A DNA stretch of 54,345 nucleotides, taken from a virus. Of this stretch, positions 2,117 through 19,546 are shown piece after piece; the first letter of the stretch is position 1, and each line of letters starts with the position of its first letter. The notes under the pieces are model-generated. The model made no database searches, had not been told where the DNA came from, and was given only the letters and a program-made list of their open reading frames with translations. The stretch covers positions 1 through 54,345 of IMG/VR virus record IMGVR_UViG_3300036893_000014; one strand, 5' to 3'. A program made the position numbers and the translations under genes.

Positions 2117-3476
2117 AGCGGTTAGCCGTCGAGCTTGCGGCGGCGGCATCCTCCGGCTTGACGTTCATCGTACTCGCGCCCATCTGTGCGTCATTCTCGC
2201 GCCCCGGCATTCCGTACAGCGGACCCATAAACTTGATCTGCTTCGATTGGATCGCGTTTCGGTCCTTCGCGCTGGACATGAAATTATCGTACAGGCTCAT
2301 GTTTGAGAAGAACTCTACGCCGGCGAGCTTGAATCCGAGGTAGTGCTGCGCGTAATCGATAATCGTCGGAATCATCTCACGCCCAATCTGGATAAACTCG
2401 TCATCTGATGCCGGAATCGGGGCGCTCGCTAAAACGTCAACCGTGCAGCCATATCCGCTATCGGGAACTTTCGAGAAGCAGAGCAAGTCGAGATCGCACC
2501 CTGAGTTGTACGGTTTTCCGCTCGTCATGCGCCAATACGGGAAAGCAGCGTTCAGTTGAGTAATCGTGCTCAATCCGATAGGGACATTGTTGATTTGAAC
2601 GCGCGCTGCCGATTTATGGTCTTTGGCAACTGCTACGGTCTGCTGATAGCGTCGGTCGCAGTAGTCGGCGCGGTAGGGATCAAAAGATTCTCCGTCCATC
2701 GTGAACAGGTCGGAAAGCGCCGCGTACTTGATGGCGTGCGAGAACTCGTCAGGGACGCCCAGAAGCGTTGTGGGCGTGACCGGCTGCGTGTAGTTGTCGC
2801 TCAAGGCCGTTACCCACTCAATAGCGCCGTCATTGAGCGGCGGCGGGAATAACTGAACCTGCGTCGGCTGCGTCACGCTTTGCGAGAAAGCGAATGGCAC
2901 CCTCGGTTCGAGAGTCCACTGCGGATTATAACTATCCTGCGCCCAGGCATCGGTCGGACGAAGCACCGTCCATGCGCCGGAAACCTGATCCTGCCAGTAC
3001 CCATGACGCAGGTAAACGTAACTCTCATCGACCGTGATAACAGCATCAGGAGAGGCGGTGACAGGCTGCGGAGCGGATACATTCAAGGGAAGCGCCGCGT
3101 CCATCACAAGGCGGTTGCGCCCACGGATTACGGAGTTGATGATTTGGGTGATGTTGAACTGAGAAGATAGTCCAGTTCCAGCGACCCCACCAGGCAACTC
3201 GAAGCAGTGGAAGTCGATTTCGGTGACGATATCGTTGAAGGTAACCGTTCGAGGACGAAGCGCCGGGAGTTGAACAGATAGATCGTACCAGGGAACCGTG
3301 GGACTAAGCGAGAATTCTCCTTTGGCTCGCCAGTAGGAAGTGAGGCACCCCCAATATCTGAGAGCTTCGATGATGGCGTATCTGGTTTCAGCATAGGTCC
3401 ATTGGATAAAATTCGGGTCATCATTCAGCGCGGCAACCTGCGCGACAAGGGACGCCATTGTGTATTGCGAATACAA
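2109..3476 (-). CDS. Phage structural protein, connector/neck type, 455 aa
   Basis: A 455-residue protein. The TTG at 3476 is preceded about 9 nt upstream by AAAGGGG; an internal ATG at 3458 is a less well supported alternative. The N-terminus (residues about 8-50) is helical and aromatic (PNFIQWTYAETRYAIIEALRYW), followed by beta-rich sequence with Pro/Tyr-rich segments and a Met/Ala-rich C-terminus. It lies between head-tail connector genes and a large tail protein, so a neck or tail structural role is likely. No conserved family is identified with confidence and no enzymatic motif is seen. Confidence 0.7.
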   Translation of the reverse strand: MYSQYTMASLVAQVAALNDDPNFIQWTYAETRYAIIEALRYWGCLTSYWRAKGEFSLSPTVPWYDLSVQLPALRPRTVTFNDIVTEIDFHCFELPGGVAGTGLSSQFNITQIINSVIRGRNRLVMDAALPLNVSAPQPVTASPDAVITVDESYVYLRHGYWQDQVSGAWTVLRPTDAWAQDSYNPQWTLEPRVPFAFSQSVTQPTQVQLFPPPLNDGAIEWVTALSDNYTQPVTPTTLLGVPDEFSHAIKYAALSDLFTMDGESFDPYRADYCDRRYQQTVAVAKDHKSAARVQINNVPIGLSTITQLNAAFPYWRMTSGKPYNSGCDLDLLCFSKVPDSGYGCTVDVLASAPIPASDDEFIQIGREMIPTIIDYAQHYLGFKLAGVEFFSNMSLYDNFMSSAKDRNAIQSKQIKFMGPLYGMPGRENDAQMGASTMNVKPEDAAAASSTANRYA

Positions 3477-3494
3477 AGATAGCGCCCCTTTCCC

Positions 3495-3731
3495 TTACTT
3501 GCGAATGTCTTCGCCGAGGCCAGATTCCGCCGGCCCGCGGAGCATTCCGCCGCCGTTGAAGTTAGCTTTTCCGGGGTCCGCAAACCCCGCCGTCGCGTTT
3601 CCGTAGTCGAACACTTTCGGCATCCCGTCGCTCTGAATGGGCTTGCTGCCAGTCACCGTGTTATTGAACGGAGTCTGGAAGATCCCCGCTACGCTGCTGC
3701 CGGTTCCGTCGTCTGCTTTTCCGTTGGCCAT
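3495..3731 (-). CDS. Small Gly/Asn-rich hypothetical protein
   Basis: A 78-residue protein starting MANGKADDGTGSSVAG, rich in Gly, Ala and Asn and without predicted membrane segments. Its start lies inside the 3' end of the upstream DUF4177-like gene (43-bp overlap), and it ends 18 bp before the start of the 455-residue structural gene. Length and composition fit a minor virion or assembly protein. No family is recognised. Confidence 0.55.
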   Translation of the reverse strand: MANGKADDGTGSSVAGIFQTPFNNTVTGSKPIQSDGMPKVFDYGNATAGFADPGKANFNGGGMLRGPAESGLGEDIRK

Positions 3732-3889
3732 GTTGGCTCCTTTACGTCTATCTTAACCCGCTTGAAGTACCAGCGGGCGGCATACCCGACTTCCCGCACG
3801 TAGAACAGGAGTTCCCATCCTTCCGCACCGAGCGCGTTCAGGGCATCTTCGTTCAACTTGTCCAGAACTACCACTTTGTATTCAAACAT
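3689..3889 (-). CDS. DUF4177-like small protein
   Basis: A 66-residue protein with FEYKVVVLD near the N-terminus, LNALGAEGWELLFYVRE at about residues 18-34 and a Trp-Tyr-Phe-Lys strand after it. The pattern 'YKVV ... LN.LG.EGWEL' is the signature of the DUF4177 family of small proteins found in phages and bacteria; its function is unknown. The C-terminal tail is Thr/Glu/Ala-rich. It abuts the connector gene upstream (3890) and overlaps the 78-residue gene downstream, so it belongs to the same transcript. Confidence 0.75.
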   Translation of the reverse strand: MFEYKVVVLDKLNEDALNALGAEGWELLFYVREVGYAARWYFKRVKIDVKEPTWPTEKQTTEPAAA

Positions 3890-5164
3890 TTACCAACTCC
3901 CTGTCGGAATCGCGTGATCGCGAAGCCATGAGCCGTCCATGAAGGGCATCGGTGCCCAGGGCGTCTGATCCTGGTAGACCATATCGCGGATCGCCGTCGA
4001 ATCGTCCTTCAACTCCAGGTCCATCGCGTAGCGCTCGTACTGCGCGGAGTGTCGCGCCGCGAGCGCCAGCGAAAAATACGGGTTTGGCGCGTCAGCACTG
4101 ACCCCCGGATACATAGCGCACTTCTCCAACGCTTTTTCGAGGATCACATCCCGGCGCACGAACGGCGGCAACTGCGGATTATTCTCGTCAAACGGCGGAA
4201 TCTTCGCCACGTACAGAAACGGATAATAGTAAAGCTGCGTCATCGGGTGGGGCCACATCTCATAGCGCGGCGAAACTTGAGACTGCGTATAGTCCTGAGC
4301 ACAGTTCGACACAAAGACGTTGCCGACCACATAGGCCGTTAGTGCGGTCGGGAAATACACCTGCACGCCGTCAGACAGATTTATCGGGTTATTGTCGCCT
4401 ACCAGTTGCGGGGGAGAAACTGCCGTCCCCACGCCGTTGCTGCTGCGGAACCAGGTGAACGCCAGCGACCCGTCCCCCGGATTTCCTCCCGTCGAGATTG
4501 TGACCACATATGTCGCGCTGCCAGGGTACGAGTACCCGAATGTCGTCGTCGCGGTCGGAGCGGGGCCGCTGCCGGAAACCTGAAGAATCGCGCCCACATT
4601 GCCCTGCGATCCGTTTAGCCCGCCCCCGTAGTCGAGAAAGCTCACGCATCGCGGCGTCTGGTTCTGCGACCGTTGCGGGTCCCAAAAATCCAGTTGTGGC
4701 TGCATGATGTTCGTGTGGAGTTTGAAGTTGTTCTGGACATCCTTCAGCGTCAACCATTCGCGGAAGTCGGCAGGCGTCGGATAATATGCCTGGTAAATCA
4801 GGTACGACTGTGTAATCTGTTGCTGGCCGATCCACGGCTGATCGAGGACCAGGGATGTTGCCGAATTCACCGCTGAAATCGTGTAGATCGGCGTGTAAAT
4901 CCCGAAGCGGAACTGGCGACCGATGAGCGTCTGGTTCCAGTTCGTTCCGCTGCCGGTGACGTTTGCCGTATTTGGGGTCGCCGTCGCCGTCCCCGTGTTA
5001 ATGAGGTTCGGCGGCGCGAAAGTTGAATTACGAATCAGCCACGACCATTCCCGGCGTTCGGCGAACTCCTGGAAGGCATCCTTCACAAACGCCTGCGCCT
5101 GCGCCGGATCAACCGGCGCACGCAACAGGACGTTGTTCCAGACAGAACTGAAGTCGTTTGCCAT
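3890..5164 (-). CDS. Head-to-tail connector/adaptor protein
   Basis: A 424-residue protein. The N-terminal helix has AFVKDAFQEFAERREWSWLI at about residues 24-43, resembling the 'helix ... Gly/Glu-Trp' start of podoviral adaptor proteins (T7 gp11 / P22 gp4 type). After it comes a Gly/Thr-rich beta segment (TGSGTNWN, GRQFRFG) and later Tyr-rich strands (QLYYYPFLYVAKIPP). The C-terminal part is helical again (AALAARHSAQYERYAM). Together with its place downstream of the capsid gene this supports a connector role at the portal. The exact family assignment is inference. Confidence 0.7.
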   Translation of the reverse strand: MANDFSSVWNNVLLRAPVDPAQAQAFVKDAFQEFAERREWSWLIRNSTFAPPNLINTGTATATPNTANVTGSGTNWNQTLIGRQFRFGIYTPIYTISAVNSATSLVLDQPWIGQQQITQSYLIYQAYYPTPADFREWLTLKDVQNNFKLHTNIMQPQLDFWDPQRSQNQTPRCVSFLDYGGGLNGSQGNVGAILQVSGSGPAPTATTTFGYSYPGSATYVVTISTGGNPGDGSLAFTWFRSSNGVGTAVSPPQLVGDNNPINLSDGVQVYFPTALTAYVVGNVFVSNCAQDYTQSQVSPRYEMWPHPMTQLYYYPFLYVAKIPPFDENNPQLPPFVRRDVILEKALEKCAMYPGVSADAPNPYFSLALAARHSAQYERYAMDLELKDDSTAIRDMVYQDQTPWAPMPFMDGSWLRDHAIPTGSW

Positions 5165-9032: not shown

Positions 9033-10979
9033 TCAACTCTCTTTAATTACCTGACGCGGAGCCTGCTGTCCTGATGCCTTCGCTCCGGCGGCGCTGACTG
9101 TCGGAACGATCCCGATTTGCGCCTGATACGCAAGGCGTTCGGGGATCGTTTTCACGTTATCCGGCAGCACACCAATGTTCGGAATACCCATCTTCTCCCA
9201 AAGGGTGAACACGTCGAGCACGCCCGCACGGAATAACTGGAACGCCATCATCTTGTCTTCGATTTGAGCGGCATTCAGGAAACTTCCCGGAGCGATCTTG
9301 AAGGTGAATCGGCGGAGGAATTCCTGAGCACGAGCGTACCTCGGGAGCGGCCCCCGCGCCAACGCTTCAGCCAGCGGCGAGCCGTGTGCATCGAGATCGG
9401 ACGTATGTGTGTACGCCGGGATAAGCGACTCTGGATCGTAATCGAAGTCTTCCTGCGTTACCGCCCCGGAGCCAGCGATTGTAGTTCGGATGTTCAGGGT
9501 ATAGTACTGGCTGAAATCGTAGGCCAGCATTGTTGCAAACTCGCGAATGAAGCACTCGATCACGCGGGATCGATAGCGATTGATCGGTGTCATGCCGTTC
9601 AGGATCGCGTCCACCGTAGAGTTCTCCGGCATCTGGTTCAGGTGCAGCATCTGGTTCAGATCGTTTACGCCGGATATCTCACGCATCTCTTTCTGAATCC
9701 AGTCGCGGTGCGCCGGAACCATTGCGTCCATCGGCGGCGGGTTGACGATCTGGATGCCCTTCCCGGCCAAGGGGTTCTGAAACGCTTTCCAGCCGGGGCG
9801 CCGAGTATCGAACTGGTCGAACGTTGCGCGCGAAACGCTGTTCTTGTCGAGGATAGATCCGGGATTGGCGACCTGCGCAACGTGATCGTCAATGACGCGG
9901 AGAACGGAGTTGAGCGAATCCTGAAGCGGCAGCAGATCCCAGATCGGCGCTTTGCCGAGATAACTCCACGGCCACGGACTGATGGTGAACTTCAGCACCG
10001 GGAACATGGCGTGCCAGTACTGGGAAGGCCCGTCATAAATCATCTGCTTCCCTACCCATGCGATCATGCGCTTATTCGGGTAGAGCGGTTGATTCGGGTT
10101 GACGATGTAGCTCCAGTTATTGAGCGGGTTGCGGGTTCCCTTCTCAAATTCGCCCATGCCGACATCGGATTGCGTCGGGTTTAAGCGGCGGTCATCGAGA
10201 TAGAGGATCTTCAGGCAGGAAACAGGAAAGCGGGGCGGCTTCGCTTTGTTCGTGTTGCCCTGTCCGAGCCACGACGCGATGCCGCCGATAAAGCCGGAGT
10301 CGTTCGCTACTTGCTCCGGGGCAGCGTCGGACTCTGCGGTAACGGTGAGTCCGAATCGGTCTTTGAAGTAGTTGACGGGATACCAGTGCTTGACGATGAC
10401 ACCGAGGCAGGATTGTATTGAGTCATAATCGCGCGGTCGGACGGGAAGGACATTACGGGGGTCCTCGGGAATGAGTTCGAGGTCTTCAATGTCGGGGTTC
10501 CAAACAAGATGGCCATAACCTGTACCTGCAACCAAGGCGTACTTGATGATAGCGGCCATTCGCTGGTCGATGTTTCGTTGGGTATACCACCAGGTACTGA
10601 GTTTTCCGTAGATTGCGGCATGCTGCTCCCATCTTTTGTTTGCCGTCTCGTAATCCCAAAACGGCTTCGTGTCGGTCAGGATCGCGGCGAGTTGTTCAGC
10701 AACGTCCGCGACTCGGTTTGTCTTAGTCTGACTGAGCGGCGATCTGGTCTGGATGATCGGCGACATCACGCCGATAATGGATTCGATGGCCGGCTCAATG
10801 CGGTCGTAGCCCTTCTGGGAGCCGATGAACGTGCCCGATTCCTGCTCGATTTCGTTACACCATCCGAGCGTCCGGTAGGCGTTCGAGCCGGGAAGGGAGT
10901 CAATGGGGATCTTCGTATCTCCGTAGGGATTTCGGTTAAACGGAGACGAGATCAGTTCAGGCTGTTCGAGTTCGGCCAT
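9033..10979 (-). CDS. Portal protein
   Basis: A 648-residue protein. It starts MAELEQPELISSPFNRNPYG and contains an N-terminal helical region (IEPAIESIIGVMSPIIQTRSP), a central wing/clip-like region with GTGYGHLVWNPDIEDLELIP, and the segment REISGVNDLNQMLHLNQMPE near residue 425-445, typical of long podoviral portals. The length fits the P22/T7-type portal range. It is the largest gene of the head operon, upstream of the scaffold and capsid genes. Portals form the dodecameric DNA gate that docks terminase and connector proteins. The C-terminus is basic and Gln/Ala-rich. Confidence 0.85.
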   Translation of the reverse strand: MAELEQPELISSPFNRNPYGDTKIPIDSLPGSNAYRTLGWCNEIEQESGTFIGSQKGYDRIEPAIESIIGVMSPIIQTRSPLSQTKTNRVADVAEQLAAILTDTKPFWDYETANKRWEQHAAIYGKLSTWWYTQRNIDQRMAAIIKYALVAGTGYGHLVWNPDIEDLELIPEDPRNVLPVRPRDYDSIQSCLGVIVKHWYPVNYFKDRFGLTVTAESDAAPEQVANDSGFIGGIASWLGQGNTNKAKPPRFPVSCLKILYLDDRRLNPTQSDVGMGEFEKGTRNPLNNWSYIVNPNQPLYPNKRMIAWVGKQMIYDGPSQYWHAMFPVLKFTISPWPWSYLGKAPIWDLLPLQDSLNSVLRVIDDHVAQVANPGSILDKNSVSRATFDQFDTRRPGWKAFQNPLAGKGIQIVNPPPMDAMVPAHRDWIQKEMREISGVNDLNQMLHLNQMPENSTVDAILNGMTPINRYRSRVIECFIREFATMLAYDFSQYYTLNIRTTIAGSGAVTQEDFDYDPESLIPAYTHTSDLDAHGSPLAEALARGPLPRYARAQEFLRRFTFKIAPGSFLNAAQIEDKMMAFQLFRAGVLDVFTLWEKMGIPNIGVLPDNVKTIPERLAYQAQIGIVPTVSAAGAKASGQQAPRQVIKES

Positions 10980-12096: not shown

Positions 12097-12999
12097 GTGA
12101 GCACCGAATTAGTACCGATTGACGTTTCGATTCAAGAACTTGCAACGGCTTGTGTCGCTCGGCTTGCGCCGAACACTCAGCGGGCGTATTCCACCTACAT
12201 CTCCGAATACCTGCGAATGAAGATTCCTGTCACCCGCGAGGGGATCAGCGCATGGCTGGCAAAACGAAAGCAGTATGGGACCGGCGCGGTAACGATCAAT
12301 GTTGCACTTGCAGCGCTAAAGTTACTTGCGCGAGAGGCGTGGATTCGCGGCCTGATGGTCGGCGACTGCTACCACGCGATTGACGACGTAAAATCCGAAA
12401 AGGTTCTTGGGCAGCGGCTCGGCCAGTGGACGGACGAAACCGGAGTTGAGAGACTTCTGGAATCCTGTATCGACAACCGGGAGCGGGCAATAATCGCCAT
12501 CATGTGCGGCTGCGGTTTGCGCCGGTCGGAAGTATGCGCCCTGAAATGGGGCCAGTATCGGGAGGCGTCGGGGCGCATGGTGCTTGCCGACATCATCGGT
12601 AAAGGTGGCCGCATCCGAAGTCTCGGCGTTCCTGAATGGGCCGCACAGATGATCGAAGCGTATCGCGGCGACGAAGCGGACCCGAACGCGCCTGTTTTTC
12701 CGTCGAACGCTCGAATCGGCCAGATCGGCGCGAATAAGCACCTTACCCCGTTCGGACTCGTGACTATTATTCAGAAGATTTGTGACCGCGCCGGCGCTGA
12801 GCTTCAGAAGTTGCGGTGCCATGATTTGCGACGATCGTTCGCTGGCATGGCACAGTCCGGTGGTGCAGAAATTCAGATGATCAAACAGGCCCTCGGGCAT
12901 TCGAGCATCGTCACCACCGAACGGTATCTGAACCAGGTGCAGAACCTGAAGATGGGCAAGACGGCGGGAGATCACATCAAGGTAAAGGCGTGTGCCTAA
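12097..12999 (+). CDS. Tyrosine recombinase / integrase
   Basis: A 300-residue protein from GTG 12097 with a complete tyrosine-recombinase catalytic set: Arg142 in CGLRRSEVCAL, Lys169 in IGKGGRIR, His242-x-x-Arg245 in CHDLRRSF, His268 in LGHSS and the nucleophile Tyr277 in TTERYLNQ. Residues about 10-90 are a SAM-like core-binding domain (NTQRAYSTYISEYL). There is no extra arm-binding domain, so its size is like XerC/XerD and simple phage integrases. It may integrate the phage or resolve multimers of a plasmid-like prophage. It lies between head and terminase genes, not beside a repressor, which is unusual. A dyad overlaps its 5' flank. Confidence 0.93.
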   Translation: MSTELVPIDVSIQELATACVARLAPNTQRAYSTYISEYLRMKIPVTREGISAWLAKRKQYGTGAVTINVALAALKLLAREAWIRGLMVGDCYHAIDDVKSEKVLGQRLGQWTDETGVERLLESCIDNRERAIIAIMCGCGLRRSEVCALKWGQYREASGRMVLADIIGKGGRIRSLGVPEWAAQMIEAYRGDEADPNAPVFPSNARIGQIGANKHLTPFGLVTIIQKICDRAGAELQKLRCHDLRRSFAGMAQSGGAEIQMIKQALGHSSIVTTERYLNQVQNLKMGKTAGDHIKVKACA

Positions 13000-14384: not shown

Positions 14385-14412
14385 GGCCGTTATGGAGTTG
14401 ATGAACAAATGA
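14384..14412 (+). repeat. 29-bp direct repeat, copy 1
   Basis: The sequence from AGGCCGTTATGGAG to AACAAATGA recurs at 14547-14575 with one mismatch (T/G at the eighth base). Each copy ends in AAATGA, giving the start codon of the next small gene. The two copies bracket a 48-codon frame, which suggests a tandem duplication of an operon junction. Confidence 0.85.
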
Positions 14413-14555
14413 GAGCAACCCTAATCTCAGACAAGTTTGCCTTTGAGCATCCCATAGTCATGAATGCGTTCACAATGGTGCTACGCTCCCCTGTTTCTCG
14501 TACTGCTTACTACTGGTACACCCCATACATCCCATGCGAACCAAAAAGGCCGTGA
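14409..14555 (+). CDS. Short ORF between direct repeats (48 aa)
   Basis: A 48-residue frame starting MRATLISDKFAFEHPIVMN at ATG 14409, overlapping the end of the first repeat copy. It is Tyr/Pro-rich at the C-terminus and resembles no known family. It could be a real small gene, or sequence inserted when the 29-bp junction was duplicated. Confidence 0.35.
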   Translation: MRATLISDKFAFEHPIVMNAFTMVLRSPVSRTAYYWYTPYIPCEPKRP

Positions 14556-14575
14556 TGGAGTTGATGAACAAATGA
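14547..14575 (+). repeat. 29-bp direct repeat, copy 2
   Basis: Second copy of the repeat described at 14384-14412, 28 of 29 bases identical. It ends at the ATG (14572) of the 98-residue gene. Confidence 0.85.
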
Positions 14576-14868
14576 ACCTCCTTCGCATCCTGAAAGTCCT
14601 CTTGCGTGGCCTTCGGCCCATCAGCCACAGCCTTGACCGCATTGCCACGGACCTGCACACGTTGACGCGGATTCAGGTAATGCGCCTGCGCCTTGAGCAC
14701 CACGAGATGCTGACGGATGAAAAGGTGGCCGCGAAACCCGGCAAGGACGATTACACGGAGGTCAGTTGGGCCGTTAAGGAGCCGCCGATCAACCGGGAAA
14801 CTGGCAAGTCGGTTATCGAAGAGGATGATTTTCAGGTAGACTTCGGTTCGATATTTGGAGGAAGGTAA
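14572..14868 (+). CDS. Hypothetical helical protein (98 aa)
   Basis: A 98-residue protein starting MNLLRILKVLLRGLRPISH at ATG 14572 in the second repeat copy. The first 60 residues form amphipathic, heptad-like helices (LDRIATDLHTLTRIQVMRLR), suggesting a coiled coil; the rest is acidic. A longer in-frame start exists upstream but lies inside the repeat-bounded segment, so the repeat-borne ATG is preferred. The function is unknown. Confidence 0.6.
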   Translation: MNLLRILKVLLRGLRPISHSLDRIATDLHTLTRIQVMRLRLEHHEMLTDEKVAAKPGKDDYTEVSWAVKEPPINRETGKSVIEEDDFQVDFGSIFGGR

Positions 14869-15066
14869 ATGGCAAACGGTGCGATGACAATCGAAGACTG
14901 GGACCGGATGCGGGAACTTCTGATGCAAGGTCAGGACCCCGGTCCAGATACTATTAACGTTCACGCAGGATGGTCAGACAATCAGCTACGCTCCATCATG
15001 AAAAGCGGAGCGACTATCATGTGCGACAAGGCAACTTACGAAAGGTGCCTGCGTCTCCAGGGGTAA
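14869..15066 (+). CDS. Small hypothetical protein (65 aa)
   Basis: A 65-residue protein starting MANGAMTIEDWDRMRELL, directly adjacent to the upstream stop, with a GGAGGAAGG ribosome binding site inside the upstream gene end. It is helical with a Trp in each half. No family is recognised. Confidence 0.6.
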   Translation: MANGAMTIEDWDRMRELLMQGQDPGPDTINVHAGWSDNQLRSIMKSGATIMCDKATYERCLRLQG

Positions 15067-15069
15067 ACC

Positions 15070-15339
15070 ATGCGATTCAACGGCAGTAAGTATTCATCGA
15101 AGCACGAGGCAGAGGAGCCATCTAAATATCCCATCGTTACGCCTCTTCCTCTCATGTTCGATCCGCAGAGTGCTAGTTACAACACGATGATGATGGGGCT
15201 TCAGGATTTCGCTAAAAAACAGGCTCAACAGCAGGCATTTGAAAATTACCTCGGCGACCTAGGGAACCCGACTCCTTCTTCTCTTTACTACTGCACTGGA
15301 CTCGGGAACATTCTCGGCGGACTATTCGGGAAACTCTGA
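15070..15339 (+). CDS. Small hypothetical protein (89 aa)
   Basis: An 89-residue protein starting MRFNGSKYSSKHEAEEPSK. The middle is a Gln-rich helix (GLQDFAKKQAQQQAFENYL) and the C-terminus is Gly/Leu-rich (GLGNILGGLFGKL), like small virion proteins. It ends one base before the TTG start of the terminase ATPase cistron. No family is recognised. Confidence 0.55.
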   Translation: MRFNGSKYSSKHEAEEPSKYPIVTPLPLMFDPQSASYNTMMMGLQDFAKKQAQQQAFENYLGDLGNPTPSSLYYCTGLGNILGGLFGKL

Positions 15340-15340
15340 T

Positions 15341-16597
15341 TTGTACGATCAGTCGATCATCGAGCGTAACATCGCTCGCATCGCGGCGAAAGCACCTTTC
15401 AAGATCACGCGGCTGTCTTCTGCCGTTTCAATCCAGCGCACGAGGGACCTGGAATCAGCATGGGATGCCAAAGAAGGAAAGTTTACCCGTGACCTGACAG
15501 AGCAGGAAGCGGAGTTCGTTCAGTCTGAGATGGCGCTGTGTCGGTACGACTTCAGATATTTCGCGGAACGTTTTGCGACGATCCAATTAGACGCAAACGT
15601 AGGCGGCGGGATGGCCCCGCCGAAACTCTGGGCTACTCAAGAGCGGGCGTTGAAACTGCTGGCCGCTCGCGAGATCGAGATGTGGAAGCAGTACGAGGAA
15701 GACAAGTTCTGCGACGGGATTCTCGCCGCACTGCACAAGGCCCGCCAGCAGGGAATGACGGCCTTCTGGTGCCAGTTAAAAATGCACCGAATGGTCTTCT
15801 ACAAAAATACTCGCGCTCTCGGGGCAACGCTGGCGATGCCGAACGATTCCTCGAAACTGGAAATTTACAACCGCGATCAGATCATCCTGAATAACCTCCC
15901 GTTCTGGATGAAACCAAAGATCCTGTATGACGTGAAAGGCGAACAGGTTCAGTTCGACGGGCTTGGGTCGAAGATGATCTATACCGATTCCGAACAGCGT
16001 TCTGGAATCGGAACGGGCGCTCAGTGGGATGTTCACCAGATCACCGAATGCGGGCTTTGGGATAACCTGCTCAGACTCATGTTCGAGTTGATGCCCGGTG
16101 TCCCGAAGTCGCCGTATGTGCTTGGCGGATGGGAGTCCACGGCTAACGGGCGCGTCGGCCCCGGCGAAGACTGGATGATCCTGACTGAAAACATCCGCAA
16201 CAAGAGAAGGGGCTATGAACATTGGGTGTACTGCTTTATCCCGTGGTACCTGGAGCCGACGAAGTACCGCCGTCCTGCGCCAACGACATGGACCCCGGAT
16301 GCCATTACGCAGAAGCACGCCGAGATGGTTGAAAACACTTCCCCGGAGTTCAACGCGGGACTGACTTACCGGCTGACACGTCCACAGATGTACTGGTGGG
16401 AGTCGGAGCACGCCATGTATCAGGGGATGAATAAGCTGAATCAATTTTTGACTAATTATTGTGCCACCCCAGAGGAGAGCTTTCAAAATTCGCTGGCCGG
16501 AGCGCTCCCGTATGAAGTGCTCGAAGGGATGCGGCATAGCGCCTCGATGTGGGGAATGCCTTACGATTTGACGTACAAGGAACAGGTGAAGATATGA
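15341..16597 (+). CDS. Terminase large subunit, ATPase half
   Basis: A 418-residue protein from TTG 15341. It carries the terminase-type Walker A motif KARQQGMT at residues 133-140, with a C-terminal 'PEESFQNSLAGALPYE' segment near 376-392 like the end of terminase ATPase domains. A Walker-B/catalytic-acid segment is near TE at 235-236 (DVHQITECGLWDN). The nuclease domain is absent and is found in the separate gene at 16776. The stop TGA overlaps the next ATG (ATGA). The ATPase pumps DNA through the portal. The split from the nuclease is unusual. Confidence 0.88.
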   Translation: MYDQSIIERNIARIAAKAPFKITRLSSAVSIQRTRDLESAWDAKEGKFTRDLTEQEAEFVQSEMALCRYDFRYFAERFATIQLDANVGGGMAPPKLWATQERALKLLAAREIEMWKQYEEDKFCDGILAALHKARQQGMTAFWCQLKMHRMVFYKNTRALGATLAMPNDSSKLEIYNRDQIILNNLPFWMKPKILYDVKGEQVQFDGLGSKMIYTDSEQRSGIGTGAQWDVHQITECGLWDNLLRLMFELMPGVPKSPYVLGGWESTANGRVGPGEDWMILTENIRNKRRGYEHWVYCFIPWYLEPTKYRRPAPTTWTPDAITQKHAEMVENTSPEFNAGLTYRLTRPQMYWWESEHAMYQGMNKLNQFLTNYCATPEESFQNSLAGALPYEVLEGMRHSASMWGMPYDLTYKEQVKI

Positions 16598-16782
16598 CTC
16601 TACGCAACGGTATTGAGATTGTCGATTCGCCTTATATGGTCGCTGGGATGATCTGCGTCAAGGAGGTTGGCGGCTATCGAATCATCGACCTTAGAAATCC
16701 AAACGACATCACTACGTTTACGATCCCGCTTGGGACTTCGTTTGTGGTCCCGCTGAAGTACGGGGATGACAGCCGGTGGTGA
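16594..16782 (+). CDS. 62-aa cistron inserted between terminase halves
   Basis: A 62-residue protein starting MTLRNGIEIVDSPYMVAGM at ATG 16594, in a third reading frame, between terminase ATPase and nuclease cistrons. It overlaps both neighbours (ATGA at the left, GTGGTGA at the right). The sequence is beta-rich (GGYRIIDLRNPNDITTF, GTSFVVPLKY). It could be a small adaptor joining the halves, a regulator, or the remains of an inter-domain linker. No family is recognised. Confidence 0.65.
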   Translation: MTLRNGIEIVDSPYMVAGMICVKEVGGYRIIDLRNPNDITTFTIPLGTSFVVPLKYGDDSRW

Positions 16783-17678
16783 CCGCTTTCCCGCCCACCA
16801 TTGCCATCGGCCAGCGCGGCTCAATCAGGAAGTCGGAAGATTGCAATCTCGAAGAGGCCCGAAGAGATCCGCGCGGGATTCTCTGGATGTGGGAAGCGCC
16901 GGATAACCGAGAGCGCTACATCCTCGGAGTTGATCCCACTTTTGGGCGCACGGGATGGAATCGCTGGAGCCGCACGGAAGAGGACTTGACAACCGATAAC
17001 GGCGCTATCGTGGTGCTTCGTCGCGGAAAAGGCGCAAAGCCGGCCGCTCAGGTTGCGGAATTTGCCGCGCCAATCGATCCGTTTGAACTTGCGTATGTCG
17101 CGAATATCATCGGTCGCGTGTATGGTCAGGGCGACGAAGATACAGACCACCAGAGCCTGATTATCCACGAAGGGTTTCCTGGACCCGGCCCGAGTTTTAC
17201 ACGGCAGATCATGGACCTCGGGTACGGGAACCTGTGGCGATGGCAGTATTTTGCCGATCTGAACGTGAAGCCGACTCAGGCGGTGGGTTGGCAAGCTACG
17301 GATCGGACGAATCAGCAGCTTTGGGCAAAGTGCAGTCGGCACTTAATTAAACACGCGGCGCATTCGCAGTTGGTGCGGTCGCCAGCGCTTCAGGAGGAAT
17401 ACTGCGATGTCGTTATCCTTCCCGGCAAGCACTGGGCTGCTTCGGTATCCTCGCGTCGCCACGATGACCGCGTGCGGGCGCACTGTCTTGCGATGTGGGC
17501 AGAGCAGGGATGGGACGTGGACTTCGAGAGCACCGATGAACCCGTAATTGCCGATACGACTGGCGAGGGCGCTGTTGAATGGGCGCATACCGATATGACC
17601 GCAGCCGAGATTCACGACGCATGGAATGACCGCTTTGAGGCGATTATGCGAAGCGGGCAAACAAAATATCGTCAGTAG
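16776..17678 (+). CDS. Terminase large subunit, nuclease half
   Basis: A 300-residue protein from GTG 16776 (or GTG 16779, which overlaps the TGA at 16780). It has the RNase H-like terminase nuclease pattern: ILWMWEAPDNRERYILGVDPTFG with the first catalytic Asp at 53, IIHEGFPGPGPSF with Glu132, and HDDRVRAHCLAMWAE with Asp230/231. It lacks the ATPase half. It should cut concatemeric DNA at packaging start and end. The normal inter-domain linker region begins at its N-terminus, so the split lies at the domain boundary. Confidence 0.85.
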   Translation: MVTAFPPTIAIGQRGSIRKSEDCNLEEARRDPRGILWMWEAPDNRERYILGVDPTFGRTGWNRWSRTEEDLTTDNGAIVVLRRGKGAKPAAQVAEFAAPIDPFELAYVANIIGRVYGQGDEDTDHQSLIIHEGFPGPGPSFTRQIMDLGYGNLWRWQYFADLNVKPTQAVGWQATDRTNQQLWAKCSRHLIKHAAHSQLVRSPALQEEYCDVVILPGKHWAASVSSRRHDDRVRAHCLAMWAEQGWDVDFESTDEPVIADTTGEGAVEWAHTDMTAAEIHDAWNDRFEAIMRSGQTKYRQ

Positions 17679-17715
17679 TGTTGATTCGCAACCGTAGATC
17701 GGGTATGCTGAATCC

Positions 17716-17880
17716 GTGGCCAAATTCAAACTTCAGGCTTCGGTAAAGAAACCGGGACAGCGTTCTGGTAATCATCAGCCGTCCTGCACTCGCGAAGAGG
17801 CAAAGAAATTCGATACGCGGTGGATTCCCATTAATCCGCAGATGGCCAAGGCGCTCATGGAGAGCCTGAAGCGTGGCTAA
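17716..17880 (+). CDS. Small basic hypothetical protein (54 aa)
   Basis: A 54-residue protein from GTG 17716 starting MAKFKLQASVKKPGQRSG. It is basic at the N-terminus with a helical C-terminus (NPQMAKALMESLKRG). Its end overlaps the start of the next gene by 8 bp. No family is recognised. Confidence 0.5.
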   Translation: MAKFKLQASVKKPGQRSGNHQPSCTREEAKKFDTRWIPINPQMAKALMESLKRG

Positions 17881-18100
17881 GTGGTCAGACGCGGATCTCC
17901 GTCTGCGCCAGTGGGTATTGGAGCATCCCGGCGTATGCAAAGAGATATCAATGAAATGCACGGTAAGCGCCGAATACGTGCGCCTGGTGCTGTATGGGAA
18001 GCGCGGGAAGTCGAAGAACAAACGGGCGAAACTGGCCACGAGCGTAACTATGAGCAAAATCAAATCTATGTTGAGAGCAAAGGGAGCGCCGATTGCATGA
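17873..18100 (+). CDS. Small HTH-like basic protein (75 aa)
   Basis: A 75-residue protein from GTG 17873 starting MAKWSDADLRLRQWVLEHPG. Residues about 15-45 read as two or three short helices (VCKEISMKCTVSAEYVRLVL) consistent with a helix-turn-helix, followed by a very basic stretch (GKRGKSKNKRAKL). It may bind DNA. Coupled to the next gene by ATGA. Confidence 0.55.
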   Translation: MAKWSDADLRLRQWVLEHPGVCKEISMKCTVSAEYVRLVLYGKRGKSKNKRAKLATSVTMSKIKSMLRAKGAPIA

Positions 18101-18351
18101 GACTGCGGTGGCACAGATTAAGAATGCGGTTCGACCGCAAGTACAGAGAGCGCGTTCAGCTTTCAGTGGCGAGGCTTTCGCCCATGATCGAACATTTCTG
18201 TTTTCACGTCAAACCGGAACTCGTGAAGGAACTGAACCGACTTCAGAGCGAACTTCTGTTTTTGCATATCAAGAAGAACATGCGAGTTGTCGGGCCTGAA
18301 GGATTAAATGAGTCCGACTTCGATCCCGACAAGGAGTTCCCGATTGCATAA
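18097..18351 (+). CDS. Hypothetical protein (84 aa)
   Basis: An 84-residue protein from ATG 18097 starting MRLRWHRLRMRFDRKYRER. The N-terminus is strongly basic; the middle is a long helix (FCFHVKPELVKELNRLQSEL) and the C-terminus is acidic. A longer in-frame start upstream is less likely because ATGA coupling fits 18097. It ends inside the glycosyltransferase start region. No family is recognised. Confidence 0.55.
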   Translation: MRLRWHRLRMRFDRKYRERVQLSVARLSPMIEHFCFHVKPELVKELNRLQSELLFLHIKKNMRVVGPEGLNESDFDPDKEFPIA

Positions 18352-19546
18352 CCTTCTCGTCTACGGAGACGCCGTTGACGGACACAGCGGCCTCGGTCGC
18401 ATCGCCCGTGACCTGTCCCTGATCGCCAACACGATGCCGGAATTCAAGGTCGGCAGCTTCGGCCGCGGCGCTGTCGGCTCAGTGCGGCTTCCGTTCCCGC
18501 AGTATTCGTTTTCCGAAGCCGACCAGTGGGGCGAGAACCAAATCATGAAGGTTTGGCGCGACTTCACGCGGGGAAGCGGATTGGGCTCGATTATGACCGT
18601 TTGGGATGCCTCCCGGCTGCTGTGGTTCACTGGACTCGCAGCGACTGGCAATCAGGAGCTTGACGCCTTCCTCGGAAACCGCACGTTTAAGAAGTGGGGA
18701 TACTTCATGGTAGACGGAACTGGGCCGGATGGCCTGACGCTTCCGTTTGAATCCCGCGCTGTGATGTCGCAGTATGATCGTGCCCTGGTGGCTTCCGATT
18801 GGGGCGTGCAGGTGGCGCGGAGGTCGGGGATCGAGTGCGAGTGGATTCCGCATCCGATTGACGGGGAAAAGTTCGCCGGTAAGTTTGTCGGCTTCAGGAG
18901 CGACAACAAGGATTTATTTGAATGCGCGGATCGCATCGTGCTCGGTTGCGTGATGACCAACCAGGCCCGCAAGGACTGGCCGACTGCATTCGCTACCGCA
19001 GCACTACTGGCGAAAAAGTATCGCAGCAAGTTCCTGTTTTGGGTCCACACGGATTCGCCGGCTTTTACGCCGGGATCTTATTGGAACCTGCACGCGCTCG
19101 CAGTCGATTACGGGTTGCCACCTGAGTGCCTGCGGATCACGATTACCGGCACACACACGGATTCGATGATGGCCGCGTTCTACAACGCTTGCGACGTGAC
19201 GATGCTCGTGAGCGGCGGGGAGGGATTCGGCTACCCTGTGGCCGAATCCCTGTGCTGCGGGTGCCCTGTGGTGACCCAAGACTATGCGGCGGCGGCGGAA
19301 CTGATCCCCGATGCGTACTCAGATTGGCGGATTCCGGTAAATGCGTTCAAGCTCGAAACCAACCACAACATTCTGCGGGCCGTGCATTCGCCGTATCGGT
19401 GGGCGCAGAAGATTGAGGAACTGGTGGAGTTGGGCCGCGTCGAGGGAGATGAGTGGCGAGCGGAATTGGCCGACAGCATGAAGCATCTGCATATCGGGAA
19501 CCTGAAGGCGGTTTGGAAGAGATGGCTGGCGGAGGGGTTGCGATGA
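18344..19546 (+). CDS. Glycosyltransferase, GT4-like (GT-B fold)
   Basis: A 400-residue protein. TTG 18344 is chosen as start because AAGGAG lies 8 nt upstream; the protein begins LHNLLVYGDAVDGHSGLGRIARD, where 'GHSGLGRIARD' resembles the Gly-rich N-terminal loop of GT-B enzymes. The C-terminal half has GGEGFGYPVAESLCCGCPVV, the donor-binding E-x7-E pattern of family GT4. It would transfer a sugar from a nucleotide donor. It heads a cluster of three GT2-like enzymes and two methyltransferases. The acceptor (virion, DNA or host envelope) is unknown. Confidence 0.82.
   Translation: MHNLLVYGDAVDGHSGLGRIARDLSLIANTMPEFKVGSFGRGAVGSVRLPFPQYSFSEADQWGENQIMKVWRDFTRGSGLGSIMTVWDASRLLWFTGLAATGNQELDAFLGNRTFKKWGYFMVDGTGPDGLTLPFESRAVMSQYDRALVASDWGVQVARRSGIECEWIPHPIDGEKFAGKFVGFRSDNKDLFECADRIVLGCVMTNQARKDWPTAFATAALLAKKYRSKFLFWVHTDSPAFTPGSYWNLHALAVDYGLPPECLRITITGTHTDSMMAAFYNACDVTMLVSGGEGFGYPVAESLCCGCPVVTQDYAAAAELIPDAYSDWRIPVNAFKLETNHNILRAVHSPYRWAQKIEELVELGRVEGDEWRAELADSMKHLHIGNLKAVWKRWLAEGLR

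Follow-up and report, generated by a model that had tools for sequence, protein, structure and literature searches.

The viral DNA record IMGVR_UViG_3300036893_000014 (positions 1 to 54,345, analyzed at its full length of 54,345 nucleotides and referred to here as the window) carries a large terminase subunit (TerL) that is divided between an ATPase gene and a nuclease gene, with a 62-codon gene, ORF62, in the slot between them (Table 1). The same division recurs in most relatives, and the best explanation of the compared sequences is an ancient split that has for the most part persisted across a large clade of uncultured phages. Taken as a whole, the locus is very probably a two-gene TerL whose halves are made by coupled translation and assemble in trans, with an intergenic slot that holds cargo.

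Table 1. Terminase locus and associated genes in the window.
Feature	Position	Strand	Description	Basis
Portal protein gene	9033–10979	-	partner of the motor	phrog_156, E 6e-13
Integrase gene	12097–12999			PHROG, E 6e-33
TerL ATPase gene	15341–16597	+	418 aa, TTG start	sequence
ORF62	16594–16782	+	62 aa, ATG start; between TerL ATPase and nuclease genes	
ATGA stop-start overlap, ATPase/ORF62	16594–16597	+	also in L001	sequence
TerL nuclease gene	16776–17678	+	300 aa counted from GTG 16776	
GTGGTGA stop-start overlap, ORF62/nuclease	16776–16782	+	also in L001	sequence

Anatomy and identity of the two terminase genes

The ATPase gene begins one base past the upstream stop codon and encodes a Walker A motif (KARQQGMT), a catalytic glutamate within QITE, and a motif III (ESTANG). 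The ATPase, ORF62, and nuclease ORFs lie in three frames, each successive one shifted by -1, and a Shine-Dalgarno-like AGGTGA, read directly from the sequence, stands just 5' of the ORF62 ATG. A second GTG is present at 16779; a nuclease start at this codon would give a 4-bp GTGA overlap with ORF62, which is the geometry seen in 17 relatives with an overlap of exactly 4 bp. The motifs of the nuclease and ATPase ORFs (YILGVDPTFG, KARQQGMT, and HDDRVRAHCLAMWA) were all found at the locus. The anatomy described in an earlier sequence-only reading, namely three overlapping cistrons with their positions, frames, and motifs, was thereby confirmed in every detail. Upstream, at 14869–15339, the window has two small ORFs between the preceding gene and the ATPase gene that are missing from the related contig L001, marking a second nearby insertion site.

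L001 comes from a separate record (62,870 bp, ∼97% DNA identity to the window) and keeps all three ORFs as well as both overlaps. Of 2337 codon bases, 78 differ between the two contigs: 38 lie in the ATPase gene, 35 in the nuclease gene, and 5 in ORF62, and those in the ATPase and nuclease genes fall mostly at third positions. The resulting pN/pS ratios of 0.07 for the ATPase and 0.04 for the nuclease indicate strong purifying selection, while the ratio for ORF62 (0.20) is drawn from only five differences and carries little weight by itself. In the ATPase frame of L001, no ATG, GTG, or TTG precedes codon 5190; translation probably starts at a CTG at 5001 following GGAGGAAGGTAA, and the window has a TTG at the matching position, 15341.

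Since indels can occur in single metagenomic contigs, the split might have been made by an error of sequencing or assembly. However, L001 displays an identical layout, and the split is repeated in independent groups of contigs, such as L014/L015/L016 and L012/L013. Together these contigs rule out sequencing error, an explanation whose probability we regard as negligible, and they bear out the earlier view that the division is not a random sequencing error.

The ATPase matches phrog_5989, a terminase large subunit family (E = 1.5e-10), and its family profile matches the T4 gp17 structures 3ezk, 2o0h, and 3cpe in the PDB (E ∼ 1e-5). Residues K133, R135, Q136, and E236 are invariant among 52–58 relatives, so that the protein has the ASCE ATPase with a deviant Walker A and catalytic glutamate of a gp17-like TerL. 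The window nuclease itself has no Pfam or PHROG match; among the 58 members of its family, 19 match phrog_24361, annotated “terminase.” Because a profile search of the PDB by sequence gave no match for the nuclease, we turned to a structure model, built with AlphaFold2 from the 58 family members (pLDDT 82.9). The model superposes on the nuclease domain of T4 gp17 (3cpe, residues 376–557) with a Z score of 19.8 and an rmsd of 2.3 Å over 179 residues; it also superposes on the nucleases of other terminases. Asp53, Glu132, and Asp231 are invariant in all 58 sequences, as would be expected of a two-metal site, and the model predicts an RNase H-fold nuclease with the corresponding carboxylate triad. 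The likeness to gp17 thus extends over both halves. The exception is that ATPase and nuclease do not share one polypeptide in the window, in L001, or in most relatives, which makes the locus a split TerL rather than an ordinary one, although it probably works like one.

The presence of an integrase gene means that the phage is probably temperate, and a prophage state makes it conceivable that the split is a terminase decaying in a defective prophage. We consider this very unlikely, as pN/pS is 0.04–0.07 in the two genes, the catalytic residues are invariant, and the split has been maintained across dozens of divergent phage contigs.

Split and fused relatives and the history of the division

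Relatives were collected by scanning viral contigs with the two TerL halves, and all counts are lower bounds. At least 73 distinct loci have both halves, at least 62 of them split and at least 11 fused, with the split point at the ATPase/nuclease linker. The genes overlap in 27 split loci (by exactly 4 bp in 17 of these, among the matches listed), abut in 5, and are separated by at least 60 nt in 29, with the remaining locus cut by a contig end. L040 is counted among the 29, but its gap is overestimated because a break near residue 284 divides the ATPase itself between two frames (3271–4538), in addition to the HNH gene in its slot. The fused proteins measure 672–741 aa. Most relatives are therefore split, contrary to the outcome that the sequence-only reading had named as fatal to its view, in which close relatives would all have a single intact gene. 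No relative was confirmed among prophages in bacterial genomes, and isolated phages yielded only distant fused TerLs.

In three relatives the ATPase ORF is lengthened to about 670 aa (L044, 1413–3428; L045, 1478–3490; L046, 2987–4993) by an intein of about 260 aa with a LAGLIDADG-like part, which sits inside Walker A (HKARQLGA/C...SHN/TALSR). The nuclease remains a separate gene in all three.

We considered whether the separate ORFs might still yield one protein. The sequence-only reading had offered, as an alternative, two successive programmed -1 frameshifts joining the three ORFs into a single TerL polypeptide, and the window frames do differ successively by -1. However, neither window junction has a slippery heptamer, which is present in just 2 of the 62 split loci. 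The frame relation also varies among loci, the ATPase and nuclease frames do not overlap at all in 33 of the 62, ATPase genes end in TGA, TAA, or TAG, and the inserts include whole unrelated genes of up to 3 kb. Frameshifting is accordingly a highly improbable account. Readthrough of the stop under an alternative genetic code is ruled out, since the frames differ and all three stop codons terminate ATPase genes.

We view splicing, in which an intron or a split intein would rejoin the halves at the RNA or protein level, with the same strong doubt. Group I introns do split terL in Jug phages, where splicing restores one protein (PMC12363816), and the three relatives described above carry an intein inside the ATPase. 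Against this, no Rfam intron was detected at the window junction (14400–18400, none at E 1) or in 14 relatives that have an insert in the slot (none at the gathering score), and the window proteins have no Hint or intein match. Most ATPase tails are too short for an intein half, as they extend only 4–14 residues beyond the last domain motif, and many junctions are 4-bp overlaps that leave no space for such an element. The Jug phage genes thus resemble the present ones in that terL lies in fragments, and differ in that we found no intron here.

In a tree of 68 rows, every split locus falls in one clade (SH-aLRT 97) and the outgroups are fused, while four fused loci (L002, L029, L133, and L120) branch from within split groups. 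In a more careful tree of 65 rows, the window belongs to a group of 13 rows (bootstrap/SH-aLRT 98/88), and fused L002 sits next to split L043 (99/88). Fused L097 and L100 lie outside the split clade in the 68-row tree and inside it, with weak support (86/86), in the 65-row tree. An AU test rejects a clade made up of split loci only (p = 0.03). Furthermore, the linker of the fused L002 protein ends in ...SSSSNFP, which lines up with MSNFP, the start in split relatives, and this is the trace that a re-fusion would leave. The simplest history has a single ancient fission followed by about three re-fusions; additional fissions may have occurred, and the number of either event is uncertain.

The slot between the genes and ORF62

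The slot holds different genes in different relatives. HNH endonuclease genes occupy it in L018, L040, L062, and L119, an N6/N4 methyltransferase gene in L049, and glycosyltransferase/methyltransferase genes in L083, L086, and L089, with an additional endonuclease ORF in L086. Small unique ORFs are present in L012 (81 aa) and L028 (67 aa), and other relatives have further genes there. These genes are unrelated to one another, and the inserts reach 1–3 kb. The best reading of this pattern is that small genes have entered and left the slot again and again. The interval between the nuclease and portal genes of relatives is likewise variable (0.56–3 kb), so gene turnover in this region is not restricted to the slot. 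The window itself has a glycosyltransferase gene directly downstream of the terminase (18308–19546), the kind of gene also found in the slots of L083, L086, and L089.

ORF62 is conserved in L001 at 97% amino acid identity and has no other relative among the matches listed. It matches nothing in Pfam or PHROG, and its AlphaFold2 model is of low confidence (pLDDT 62), with three predicted β strands. The sequence-only reading took this protein for a new small linker subunit of the packaging motor. Its place exactly in the slot, and its retention in two genomes with a tight overlap on each side, would suit a third subunit of the motor, one that in this genus would connect the ATPase with the nuclease. 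That role is nonetheless unlikely: ORF62 is restricted to the window and L001, it is absent where the ATPase and nuclease genes of 27 relatives overlap directly, unrelated genes take its place in other relatives, and the fused L002 protein has merely a linker of about 30 aa at this point. For these reasons the proposal of a linker subunit is unsupported, and ORF62 is probably accessory cargo of the slot rather than a part of the motor.

Essential phage enzymes encoded in pieces are known from homing-endonuclease systems, including Aeh1 nrdA/mobE, the T4 topoisomerase gene 60/mobA, and gene 43A/43B; Aeh1 nrdA/mobE is a documented fission by a homing endonuclease (PMC2988022). The split terminases resemble these systems in that an essential enzyme is made as separate polypeptides, in that the slot contains an HNH gene in four relatives, and in that an intact gene exists in relatives, here both the fused outgroups and the fused members nested in the clade. 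They differ in that the fission is old and sometimes re-fused and the cargo varies, and in that the middle gene of the window has no endonuclease match in Pfam or PHROG. A homing endonuclease may have caused the original fission of terL.

A probable packaging motor in two parts

Distances among the ATPases and among the nucleases are closely correlated across 53 loci (Mantel r = 0.91, compared with 0.11 for the best of 1000 permutations). In each of 16 contigs of 54–68 kb, the sole TerL-like matches are one ATPase gene and one nuclease gene. No second TerL was found in these contigs with the fused L002 protein, PF03237, and PF04466 as queries, the silence of the latter two models being weak evidence because both also miss the known pair. 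Since the halves co-diverge and each contig holds one of each, the ATPase and nuclease most likely serve together as the working terminase. Of the heteromeric motor proposed in the sequence-only reading, the separate ATPase and nuclease polypeptides are thus retained as most likely, and the small linker subunit is dropped.

We propose that one gene would provide a gp17-type translocase ATPase and the other an RNase H-type nuclease for cutting the DNA once packaged. The gene layout suggests separate translation of the halves, in which each protein would have its own start codon and the stop-start overlaps would couple their translation. The two proteins would then join in trans at the portal to form a functional motor that packages and cuts DNA. 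Fission at the interdomain linker would have left the intergenic slot, which in the window holds the 62-codon gene. In relatives whose contigs reach far enough, the portal gene is nearly always on the same strand as the terminase, 0.6–3 kb downstream of the nuclease; its opposite orientation in the window marks a rearrangement local to this genome.

According to the T4 model, each stroke draws the nuclease domain 7 Å toward the ATPase, and splitting gp17 at the linker preserves ATPase and nuclease activity while translocation is abolished (PMC3012670). The T4 protein is one polypeptide. Because gp17 cut at its linker loses translocation, a split motor needs some compensation; presumably this lineage has a stronger non-covalent interface, or requires the nuclease for cutting only.

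Earlier reports of split terminases concern single phages, and the authors describing one such isolate suspected a problem of codon table or assembly (PMC10773633). That isolate is a single case, whereas here the split is clade-wide and fused relatives are available for comparison. We found no paper on this clade in the open-licence literature, nor any report there of a clade-wide, stable split with changing cargo.

These phages have practical and mechanistic implications. TerL-based phage classification sees only half a marker in them, because the window nuclease lacks a Pfam or PHROG match of its own. As the linker split is natural and stable, the need for a tether between nuclease and motor becomes directly testable, and a single tree offers natural pairs for comparison, such as fused L002 and split L043. 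On balance, we think it likely that in this lineage of tailed phages the ATPase and nuclease are permanently separate, that the covalent hinge is dispensable or has been replaced non-covalently, and that cargo genes have landed repeatedly in the slot between the two genes.
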